Part shown: positions 1,376 to 63,625 of the stretch, piece by piece
Numbering within the stretch: the stretch's first letter is position 1
Layout of the letters: every line of letters begins with the position of its first letter
Source: Nereocystis luetkeana
Lineage: Eukaryota > Sar > Phaeophyceae > Laminariales > Laminariaceae
DNA length: 64,000 nt
Direction: 5' to 3'
Assembly: GCA_031213475.1 (NCBI GenBank)
Contig: JARUPZ010000013.1
Span: forward strand, 2,142,231-2,206,230
The notes under the pieces: model-generated
Seen by the model: only the letters and a program-made list of their open reading frames with translations
The model's database searches: none
What the model was told of the DNA's origin: nothing
Made by a program: the position numbers and the translations under genes

Positions 1376-2229
1376 CAACCGCACCTGCCAACCAAGACCA
1401 GAATCGTCCAGAGCGGAAAACAGAGAAAAAAAACATGAAACAATACAAACGCGACTGATACGTAGACAGAGACAGCAGCGACCCGACCTCCTATTAATAT
1501 GTACTCGTAGCAACCCTTAAAAAGGTCGTGTTTTCTGTGTCGTTCGTAGTTCGTCCTCTCTTTTTTGCCGACTCACAAAAGTGAACCAGGGGTTACGAAA
1601 AAAAAACTTTGGCTTTACCTCCTCTGGTTTCAACATGGTGACCTATTATACCCTTTCGGGACTTTGGGGGTTTTCGTTTCAGCAGTAGCAGCAGCGGCAG
1701 CAAGATACCTCGGACTACCACGAAAAAAAATACAACCAACTTAGTGCTCAAAGTGATTGATATTCCCTGTTCGTAGTCGTAGTACATTTCGTTGTTTTCT
1801 GATGTAACAGAAGCAGCAGCAGCAGCAACATCGTACTCCGGACGATCACGACAATGAAAATGCGGAATGCCCCAACGCAGTATAGAAAGGCACGGTTGTC
1901 TACCGTCTGTACGCACGAACGTACGTAGCAAACGATTGTCCATTCTCGAAAAAAAAAGTTCCAGACAAAAAAAAAAAACACCAGTACGAGCTATATTATA
2001 TGTACGTGGGTTAATACTGTTAGCTATATTCGTGATATTTATGTTCTTTTTCGGACATATCTCTTCGCACGAGCGCTTTCGCGCAAAACGGCAAGTAGTC
2101 AACACGGGAAGCCCCGCCGGACACGTCATATATTACCAGGTAGGTATATATAATATATACATAATGTATATATCATATATACCAGGTAGGTTTTTGTTGA
2201 CTTGTTTCCTTTTCGACGAACGAACAAAC

Positions 2230-5200
2230 CTTTTTGCTGAACATCTTGGGCAGGGCGAAGAGGCGCACGATGATAAGCAGACCGATCACGGACGGGAAGA
2301 AGAGAGCCGTTCTCTTGAACGACTTCAGCGTCCAAAGGAGCGCTAGCATGGCGGCCTGCAACCAAAAATGGGGCCACAAACGCGTTGCCACCGAGAAAAA
2401 AAAAAAAAAAAAAAAAAAGACGGCAACGGCGGGGGGGAGGGGGGGGGGGGGGGACGGGGAAAAAAAATCGTGCGAAACGTTTCATATCACACGTCGGACT
2501 CTCTCCTAGATAATGTCAGTGTCGACAAAATATCAGGTCCTGTCCCCTCGATCGTAACGCCTCACCATATATCACCACGATAATCCTTCAAAAGCCAGCC
2601 TAGCTCCTCTCGGGGGTACTCTGAGATTCACCCCTCGTTTGCTGATGATGCCCGAGCCGAGAGGCATGGTAACGCCGCACAACCCACCACCTCGGTGTGT
2701 CTCCCTACTCAAAAGACGGAAGAAAGAGACTATCTGCTGCGGGGATACCACCTGTCCCACATTTGGCGTCGTCGCTAGTATATACCTGGTACCAGGTACC
2801 ACGTACAGTACCGGTATTGTGCGAAGACCATTGCCATATATGTGTTATCCCACCCCGCGCTCCTTAGTCCCACAGCTTCAGATTTTGTTCGCCGAAATGA
2901 GGGGTGCCGAAAACATAGTGACCGCTTTGTATTCAGATTGATGTCTAAACGGTCCTGATACTCCACCCGCCCATAGTCCCCGGTGGCTTGGTAGGTGGTC
3001 CGCGAGCCTATCAAGATCCTTTTCGTGGAATCAAGTCCCACCGAGTGCATGCTCGTAGGGGCTTTTTCTTGCATAAAAATAAATTGATTAGCGGAAAGCG
3101 CGAGAGCGTGAGTTAGCTACATTCGATGAAAATCGACGAGCAGTGGGAATGCTGAACCCTATGCGCGACAAAAAATAAAGGCACGTACCGGGGGGGAGAA
3201 GGGTAGACACCTGTGACCACGGCTTGTCCTGAAGGTCGTCGAGGGTAAACCCTCCTACGAGTTAGGCTGGAAAGTGAAAGTGATGATTAAAAAATAGTGG
3301 GGTTACCTTTGGAGGCTACCTTTAGAGGTGACCGTGAGGGGTTTTACAGTCGAGGGCTCTATCGCTGGAGGTTACCGTTGAGGGGTTACCTTCAGACATT
3401 ACCGTTGGAGGTTACCGTTGAGGGTTAGAGATAGTCACTAGAGAATACCATTAGAGGATACCGTTGGGGGGTACCACTAGGGGATACCTTTGGGGAATAC
3501 CGTTAGGTGGTACCGATAGAGACTGCCACTATTAGTATTACGGGGGGCCATAGTAAGTGAGACCAAATCTTGTTAGTAGAAATAGCGAAATATATAGGAT
3601 TTTGTGTATACCGTAGGCCCTATTTAATATGGTCCCCCGTAATAGAGGCTACCGGTAGGGGTTACGGTGAAAGGTTGCCGCTAGAGGCTACCGCCAGACA
3701 CTACCGAACTGTGTTCCTGTCGTCGTTACCTGAATCGCGTTTCACATTGAGGCCGTCGCGAAGCCCACCTCCTTTACGTTGGAGATAAAACGGATATAAA
3801 TCTGCGACAAGGCCTGCGCAAACTTAACAGAATTGTCGTGAGATATCCCTCCTCTTTCCCCTCATTTTTCAGACGCGTTTCTCGCTGCGTCTTTCCATCC
3901 CCTCTATTTACGGAGGCGTTTCTCGCTGTGCTTTCGTCGTTGTTACCTGAACAGCGGTGTACTTGGAGGCTGTCGCGAAGCCGACCTTCTTGATGTCGGA
4001 GTCGCCCGGCAGTAGCTCACGGTCGAACAGAGTCTCCTTGAGCCTGACCAAGAACCCATTACCGCTCATGACCTGTTCACATGGTGACGCGCATACAGTA
4101 AGTGTTGGGTGTCGTATCGAAAAAATGTCAAAATATCAATATTTCGATATATCGAAGGTCGATAGATGGCAATATCGGAGTTTCGATATGCCGCATGATC
4201 AGACTTCGACATATCGTAGTTCCGATATATCGCGATAGCAGACTTGGATGTATCGTACCGCAACCTTCACCGAGAAATTGTTGCCACTCCTGGCCTGTTG
4301 GCAAGTTGACTGACGTTCGCACGTGCATGTGTTGACGATAGTATTCGGTATCTCACGCAGTACACGGAAATTTTCGACATATCGCACTATCGGGATATCG
4401 AACTTCGATATATATCAATATCGGGATATCGAACTTCGATATATCGCAATATCGGGAGATCGAACTTCGATACATCGCAGTATCGGGATACCGAATTCTT
4501 CGATATCCCGTGTCGAACAGCACCAAGAGCGCGTTGTTGCTCATAGCCCCTTCGTATGTTTACATACGTCGCATGGACGTCCTCCCCCGTCACCATGCGG
4601 TATGAAAGAGACCCATCAACAACACACGAATCCCCTTCCGCCGCCCTCCCTCAGGGGAGGGATTGACCATCCACCCTCGCATAACCCCCCCACAGGGCCC
4701 AACAGGGGATGAATCAACCCCCCCCCCCCCCCCCCTCCGAAACGCCTAAAAAAAACAAAAAAACACCGTTCTCCTCAGGTGCGAAGATACCCGACCCCAA
4801 AGCCAATATAACCTTCTCGGGCTGCGGCAGCAGAAGAACCTCCCCCAAGTCCGACAGGGGATGAATCGACCACCCCCTCCCCCTCCCCCCCAAACGCCCA
4901 AAAACAAAAAAAACACACACACATTCCCCAAGTTTAGGAAGATGCCGACACTACAGTCACGGGACTTTTCCCGGGCCGCGGCAGAAGAGCCTCTTCAACT
5001 CCCGCAGGGGATGAATCAACCACAAACATTTCCCCCTGCCCCAAGCCCGACGTGCTCCGTCCCGGCATTATAGGGATGCGAGGGGTCTATTATATGGTCT
5101 TACGACTACGGCCATGCATGACATCAGCACCCCCCCCCCCCCTCCTCGCCATAGGGTCTATTATGGTCATACGACTACGGCCATGCATGAAATCGAGTGC

Positions 5201-62540: not shown

Positions 62541-62616
62541 GGTTAACGTCCCAAACCTAACTCCGATTCCAAGTGCTTTGTCCCCACCATGGGAGTGCAG
62601 GTCTAAAGGGGTTGAG
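62541..62616. mobile_element. B-family MITE, degenerate
   Basis: The core ATTCCAAGTGCTTTGTCCCC and the end GTCTAAAGGGGTT are recognisable; the left arm is mostly lost. Confidence 0.45.
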
Positions 62617-63625
62617 GAGCGCGGTCTATCAGAAATAGTGTGCCCAAAAAGGTGCTACGAAGCCTCTATCGTAGCACTCATCGTGAGTTAGATATTAAAC
62701 GTTACCTGGTATACGATATCGGATCCAAGGACAGGTGCGGCGGGACACCCGCCCCCCTTCCGACATCCCAAGAGAAGGTGGGAAAAATACAGACACTCGT
62801 TGCAAGCAGTTTTTCAAACGCGACGAAACCCGCAAAAGTGGGCGTCAGAAAGCATGTGCGTCCGTGGGGCGATCCAACCCAAGAGACCCCCGAAGCACCT
62901 TTCGGTACATAAACAAAGGACGCAGATTCCGCGGAACGTGGACAAACCCACACCTTGCGGGATTTCTAACGCTACAAAGGGTTTGCACTGTACTACAGTA
63001 GAACGCCTTCTTCTTGCCCAACTTTAATTAGGGTATATGCCCAATAGGGGTAGGCCCGTCCACACGTGAAGGTAGGATACCTCCTCTTACTGGAGCCACC
63101 TCGCAGCGAAAACATATTGAGGTACTGAGGACTCGTCCCACGTTATACCGTTTTCTGGCTCAACATTGTTTGACCGGTTGAGCTCTTCAAGTGAGGAACC
63201 ACCGGTAAGTAAGTTATCGGTTAGCCATACTGTCACTCGGCACTGTAGTGCCAGGTACTTTTGTTTTAGGACTAGCGCGAGGGTGCTCGACAAAAATATA
63301 AAACGACCCGCACTCCTTCACAGTGTTGATATTAAGCACAAACCAGTCAATCGGGATTTCTGGATGGAATCACGGAAGGTGAGTTTTTCCACGGTTGCAC
63401 TTGACTTGGTTTTAGTATACTCCCCTGTCGGGGTCTCGAAAAAGGGAAGCGGGGTGTCGGGAGATCTTGTTTTCGTGGACCCCTTACTAGCAGATAAAAA
63501 TCTTGGTCGGGTTGGGCCACCAAAATTCTTTGAAGTTAGGTTTCGGGTGACATATTGAGCTCCTCACATAATTATTAGCTTATAGTACGGCACCACCCCT
63601 ATATGCCGAGTCTTTTTTTAAAGGA

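Follow-up and report, generated by a model that had tools for sequence, protein, structure and literature searches.

Abundant seven-base gains at TA dinucleotides in the genome of the brown alga Nereocystis luetkeana as probable excision scars of a cut-and-paste DNA transposon

The scars that transposons leave on excision are normally short or messy and cannot be counted. The footprint of Minos consists of four terminal bases with a TA duplication, and in the footprint of Sleeping Beauty an A/T alternative arises from a central mismatch. Here, we analyzed a 64,000-nucleotide stretch of the genome of Nereocystis luetkeana (the window), in which the nine-base word TACC(A/T)GGTA is strongly over-represented. 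We read each occurrence as a heritable scar left by a cut-and-paste DNA transposon with TA specificity that inserted once and was later excised, and assign this reading a probability of roughly 0.72. The scar resembles that of Minos in having more than three bases and a TA duplication, but the Minos scar has four bases and another sequence.

In Tc1/mariner transposition, the non-transferred strand is nicked a few bases in from the element end, and joining of the resulting 3' overhangs gives the footprint, which has three bases in the case of Sleeping Beauty (PMC7827188, PMC8151067); the published size of Tc1/mariner footprints is 2-4 bp (PMC7913693). As we propose for N. luetkeana, Sleeping Beauty duplicates TA and leaves a scar that end joining makes out of short 3' overhangs at the tip of the element (PMC8151067, PMC7827188); its footprint is printed as TAG(T/A)CTA (PMC2874221). 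The Sleeping Beauty overhang, CAG, has three bases, whereas here there are five bases, about 180,000 uniform copies and no element found. Stowaway miniature inverted-repeat transposable elements (MITEs) and Osmar5 of grasses share the TA duplications and short end fragments, and an insertion adjoining an old footprint has been seen in grasses, but the fragments are 1-4 bp long and several footprints occur at one site (PMC1925063), whereas here a single sequence is found. In rice, excisions were likewise read from genome comparison, in that case of two species; of the 94 putative excisions, just 8 were perfect and the others had deletions or filler (PMC4423477), in contrast to the very uniform scar described here. 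Ectocarpus provides mostly non-autonomous brown algal elements of the TA type, with 17 Mariner-Tc1 families reported, and the words "footprint" and "excision" do not occur in the main text of that report (PMC12477816). A uniform five-base scar in such numbers falls outside the published footprints compared, as the cited passages describe them. Among the listed papers of the open literature, which did not include subscription papers and preprints, none gives an account of the scar by title or abstract opening, and the 20 listed of 217 papers that contain the 9-mers are unrelated by title.

An earlier note on this DNA had listed 26 starts of the word in the window, against about 0.5 expected. 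By a direct position check all 26 starts are exact (16 TACCAGGTA and 10 TACCTGGTA), and the gross excess stands, since Markov models of order 1-4 predict 0.44, 0.49, 0.52 and 0.90 occurrences on both window strands. The expectation rises to 3.7 at order 5 and to 22.3 at maximal order because these long contexts are mostly made by the scar word itself. The window (positions 2,142,231-2,206,230 of contig C13) belongs to a genome of 465,085,209 bp in 1,987 contigs, and the genome-wide count that the note had proposed as a check was likewise far above its control: 91,240 forward and 91,155 reverse sites (182,395 in total, or one per 2.5 kb) were found, vs 861 + 883 = 1,744 for the same word read backwards, i.e., an approximately 100-fold excess.

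Repeat copies with and without the scar were compared in a 324 kb sample composed of C1:1-200,000, the window, 20 kb beside the window, and 40 kb of contigs C2 and C5. TA starts at 5.5% of sample positions, and scars thus occupy about 0.7% of all TAs. For each of 99 usable scar sites, the flanks were joined at a single TA and paralogs were sought elsewhere in the sample; sites were scored as clean if a paralog spanned the junction with zero gap and TA at the junction. As controls we took 842 other TA-N5-TA sites in which the five intervening bases were of at least three kinds. A clean single-TA paralog, without exactly CC(A/T)GG plus TA, was found for 17 of 99 scars vs 16 of 842 controls (Fisher p = 2e-9), and among sites with any spanning paralog for 17 of 32 scars vs 16 of 250 controls (Fisher p = 3e-10), both tests assuming independent sites and four of the 17 scars being one inherited scar. 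These four (C1:61,225, 92,260, 94,926 and 114,563) have the scar in common and were all judged against the same empty copy, so the number of independent events is below 17. Among the 16 passing controls, five lie in a CCTA microsatellite and four in MITE copies, and one passing control word, TACCTGATA, is the scar with one change.

The same comparison supports two insertions that the earlier note had described. At 19412, in a MITE, there are 17 matching empty hits across the sample, and the large repeat at 23134 has empty, single-TA relatives at window 17208-17326 (82.5%) and C1:158,880-159,003 (77.8%). Further clear cases are C1:184,079, with a 93% paralog that lacks the 7 bp, and C1:48,194, with six empty hits; at a doublet at C1:38,770, the paralog is shorter by 14 bp. 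Also among the 17 are C1:116,763 and C1:165,783, which align to paralogs carrying another scar nearby, and window 24,458 and C1:16,290, which depend on more diverged paralogs. In a stricter scan of TA-X-TA words (X = 2-10 bases, single-base words excluded), CCAGG, with 12 clean of 21 spanning sites and 99 sites in all, was far above every other word outside telomeric and tandem repeats among the 45 top words listed. The next words (clean/spanning) were GA/TC (7/29), CTGC (4/9) and TTAA (4/11), the clean examples of the last two falling partly in a CTAC microsatellite, and lower ranks were held by TA (3/31), CG (3/43) and CAG (3/24). Thus, TA becomes TA-CC(A/T)GG-TA by a seven-base gain at an existing TA, the indels being exactly those that the earlier note had predicted. 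The TA is duplicated: it is single in the empty paralogs and flanks the insert on both sides. Other matched dinucleotides around CCAGG numbered 55 vs 31.5 expected (1.75-fold, with nine control words at 0.93-1.54); non-TA targets could make up a small share of scars, which we do not claim.

The window sites are as follows, each identified by exact word match unless paralogs are mentioned.

2134..2142, plus strand, scar TA-CCAGG-TA
2180..2188, plus strand, scar TA-CCAGG-TA
2783..2791, minus strand, scar TA-CCTGG-TA, left unit of a doublet, TA in common with the 2790 site
2790..2798, plus strand, scar TA-CCAGG-TA, right unit of doublet 2783-2798
6783..6791, minus strand, scar TA-CCTGG-TA
9395..9403, plus strand, scar TA-CCAGG-TA
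17208..17326, plus strand, repeat copy with empty site (single TA), counterpart of 23134 by paralog alignment
17528..17536, minus strand, scar TA-CCTGG-TA
19412..19420, plus strand, scar TA-CCAGG-TA within a MITE copy of about 112 bp (word match and empty paralogs)
23134..23142, plus strand, scar TA-CCAGG-TA within a larger repeat (word match and empty paralogs)
23729..23737, plus strand, scar TA-CCAGG-TA, left unit of a doublet
23736..23744, minus strand, scar TA-CCTGG-TA, right unit of that doublet
24458..24466, plus strand, scar TA-CCAGG-TA (word match and paralog, one weaker empty relative on C2, 78.6%)
25064..25072, plus strand, scar TA-CCAGG-TA
26091..26099, minus strand, scar TA-CCTGG-TA
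26327..26335, plus strand, scar TA-CCAGG-TA
27535..27543, minus strand, scar TA-CCTGG-TA
28106..28114, plus strand, scar TA-CCAGG-TA
39273..39281, minus strand, scar TA-CCTGG-TA, followed by CCAGG-TG
43331..43339, plus strand, scar TA-CCAGG-TA
45692..45700, minus strand, scar TA-CCTGG-TA
45768..45776, plus strand, scar TA-CCAGG-TA
48346..48354, minus strand, scar TA-CCTGG-TA
49833..49841, plus strand, scar TA-CCAGG-TA
50454..50462, plus strand, scar TA-CCAGG-TA
60842..60850, plus strand, scar TA-CCAGG-TA
62703..62711, minus strand, scar TA-CCTGG-TA

Some scars are doublets with one TA in common, as at window 2783/2790 and 23729/23736. The latter is directly followed, at 23743, by TACCCTGGTA, which has six bases between the TAs, and the CCAGG-TG after the 39273 scar is perhaps a second unit whose TA has mutated to TG. 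TAs inside scars are re-hit more often than chance: the doublet pattern TACCWGGTACCWGGTA occurs at 15,917 places genome-wide (the reversed pattern at 2), a 12-fold excess over the approximately 1,300 doublets that random hits on TAs would give.

Target composition was derived from 87 sites, after the 12 exact-doublet sites had been removed from the 99. The base bias is symmetric (palindromic) about TA, AT-rich, and extends over about 8 bases on each side. A/T reaches 0.83 vs 0.52 at -7, and A reaches 0.45 vs 0.24 at -6 and 0.42 vs 0.28 at -1; G is avoided at -8, C at -3 and T at -1, where A is favoured. Beyond these positions, no deviation exceeds z = 2.7, the value reached at -13. Held-out sites scored 6.0 (standard deviation 1.4) times background TA on the resulting matrix, and a TA enrichment at +-7 was owed partly to doublets and decayed doublets (33 of 85 sites dropped). 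A symmetric bias is as expected from a symmetric transposase complex on target DNA and thus supports insertion by a transposase; it is hard to derive from selection on a finished motif.

The scars are inherited and decay, as judged from an excess of altered words: the 26 other single-change forms occur 97 times, vs 54 for their reversed counterparts, beside 85 exact sites in 264 kb, which suggests roughly 5% change per base on average. Inheritance also follows from the scar common to diverged paralogs at C1:61,225, 92,260, 94,926 and 114,563 (83-92% alike), which the copy at C1:40,304-40,428 does not carry. A copy at C1:89,280 has the scar together with an adjoining TACCGGTA (C1:89,287) that its paralogs lack.

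With the paralogs with and without the insert and the palindromic target bias considered, the excision scar with TA duplication that the earlier note had suggested is the best explanation, and its five bases, rather than the three usual for Tc1/mariner, are confirmed (published range, 2-4 bp; PMC7913693). We infer that the element ends begin with 5'-CCAGG and that the transposase would cut the non-transferred strand five bases in from each element end, so that both flanks would keep a 3' CCAGG overhang. Such ends may resemble the Mos1-type mariner end, which the earlier note gave as starting with CCAGGT. Two such overhangs could pair CC:GG and GG:CC with the central A:A alone mispaired, and end joining or repair would then fix either CCAGG or CCTGG. 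The scheme would be that of Sleeping Beauty, with a five-base overhang in place of its three-base CAG. It accounts for the symmetry, the A/T alternative and the TA on both sides, and the pairing of four of the five overhang bases would explain the uniformity of the scar. Since every jump would leave a scar, scar number would count past jumps and not present copies; a handful of active copies could, given enough time, account for the entire set, so a low copy number is no contradiction.

Such a scar, about 100 times over its control, suggests a transposase whose cuts are staggered by an unusual five bases and would make past jumps countable and mappable genome-wide, regardless of the number of surviving copies. 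It would allow jump rate through time, choice of target and repair fidelity to be tested directly, as well as selection against frame-breaking 7 bp scars in genes.

Several observations weigh against this reading. A paired-end scan for TACC(A/T)GG...CC(A/T)GGTA up to 12 kb apart in C1:1-200,000 and the window gave no full element, the best end pair matching at 17/25 bases with the fixed ends included and with no control scan alongside. For 114 half-site ends in the 324 kb, only six hits, at two ends, start near the boundary, five at one end in a GC-rich local repeat and one (70%) at the other. PF13358 (DDE_3) had no match in the genome with 30 candidates scored (the control matched 3 of 14 genomes), and PF01359 (Transposase_1) none with 3 candidates (control, 0 of 14), these searches being six-frame and weak on a eukaryote genome. 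The five-base footprint is outside the published 2-4 bp range of Tc1/mariner, in which, moreover, footprints are often irregular and those of Hsmar2 non-canonical (PMC3770610). The other-length form TACCATGGTA, which the model allows, is only mildly enriched (3,002 vs 623 genome-wide). The 12-fold doublet excess is not fully met by the target matrix, which rates TAs within scars 6.5-fold over other TAs, partly on the flanks that built it, and explains about half of the excess. Finally, in a hand count of the first 59 plus-strand doublets listed, all on C1, 40 had the same orientation, 14 were CCAGG-CCTGG and 5 CCTGG-CCAGG (p = 0.009 for 40/59; p = 0.06 for 14/19). Random mismatch resolution predicts half and does not account for the same-orientation surplus; tandem duplication of some units and a bias set by the flanks are options.

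Of two forms in which the mismatch would have been trimmed or filled, TACCGGTA and TACCATGGTA, the former occurs 32 times where 6.8 are expected (284 kb, both strands); neither excess is strong, and the argument does not depend on them. The two half-site ends were rejected as element ends, as none of the four printed starts coincides with the first C and the boundary is crossed by further hits at either end. A scan for TA-flanked inverted ends (at least 19/24 bases, within 6 kb) listed 40 of its 62 pairs on C1 and all 33 in the window, and no listed pair had CCAGG at its ends. In line with the earlier note, neither scan showed a source element in the window, and ten window reading frames had no Pfam match. 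The absence of PF13358 matches, despite the Mariner-Tc1 families reported in Ectocarpus, may be a limit of the search. With a footprint longer than the published range and no element observed, we do not regard Tc1/mariner membership as established.

The source may instead have been a TA-targeting transposon outside Tc1/mariner that cuts with a five-base stagger. We consider this unlikely; it is a sub-case of the excision reading, which does not require Tc1/mariner membership, and is counted within the probability of that reading. A five-base scar beyond the published 2-4 bp (PMC7913693) and the lack of DDE_3 or Transposase_1 matches in weak searches would fit such a source, but Tc1/mariner elements habitually duplicate TA and choose palindromic AT-rich targets, and Ectocarpus holds 11,912 Mariner-Tc1 copies, mostly non-autonomous (PMC12477816). 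Rather improbable is a version in which a TA-specific transposase that is biased toward excision, possibly domesticated, and staggers its cuts by five bases removed the elements almost completely by uniform self-complementary end joining, a ciliate-like but heritable process in which the approximately 180,000 seams would record each jump.

We give little credence to direct insertion of the seven-base CCAGGTA at TA by an enzyme, e.g., in templated break repair, with no larger element involved. The single uniform insert, the scans in which no source element appeared, and the shared orientation of both units in 40 of 59 listed doublets, which tandem addition would produce, are in its favour; however, the TA duplication, symmetrical insert and palindromic target bias fit a transposase dimer, and we know of no enzyme that inserts a seven-base unit of this kind.

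Programmed excision, in which a host-controlled transposase would remove TA-flanked elements from most nuclei and the assembly would show the seams, is very improbable. It has a precedent in the MITE-like eliminated sequences of ciliates (PMC9942856), and the TA boundaries, the single seam sequence and the lack of a full element in 324 kb beside about 180,000 genome seams would agree with it. The excess of single-change forms (97 vs 54), however, means that the seams decay like ordinary old DNA, and one scar, absent from a sister copy, is common to paralogs that differ by 8-17%. No programmed elimination of such kind is known to us from brown algae. Programmed or excision-biased removal is less likely than excision by few active copies. 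That the word is a functional motif (a binding or methylation site) kept or created by selection, in line with its extreme over-representation and the symmetry of CCWGG, a known bacterial methylation site, is scarcely credible, as testable sites arise by 7 bp insertion at TA and not by base changes, and one scar lies inside a MITE copy for which 17 matching hits are empty; some sites may nevertheless have acquired a function later.

Two other short words are possibly further, rarer scar types. TACGAGTA/TACTCGTA is in excess (57 vs 11.7 expected in 264 kb), and in the 324 kb sample it is clean at 2 of 13 spanning sites and TAGATA/TATCTA at 7 of 29.

The MITE family of about 112 bp, with ends ATTACGGGGG...CCCCCGTAAT, occupies at least 12 places in the window (starts 3535, 6324, 9896, 14558, 17584, 19397, 23224, 26727, 36978, 46166, 51079 and 55098), two copies being in tandem at 23224/23294. 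Another inverted-repeat family of 60-96 bp, around CAGTCCCGTTTTGGGGAC...GTCCCCAAAACGGGACTG, starts at 9763, 14352, 18668, 18778, 18904, 24127, 27142, 38263, 41872, 43233 and 45560. A long inverted repeat at C1:84,879-88,389 (L011) has arms of about 1 kb that are 94-97% alike, with an apparent insertion in one arm. It was rejected as the source, having no CCAGG ends in the pairs listed, and three reading frames in it had no Pfam match up to E 0.5; a partial copy of 430 bp lies at C1:101,602-102,031. Large tandem arrays in the window are found at 7151-7378 (period 4), 8361-8770 (36), 18079-18318 (22 bp), 33457-33691 (14/28) and 58745-59909 (30/126 bp). C1 begins with a (CCCTAA)n array and contains one gypsy-type integrase frame that is suggestive of a brown alga, as its 10 hits, three with a named source, include Scytosiphon promiscuus (56% over 87%) and Laminaria digitata (57% over 67%) proteins.

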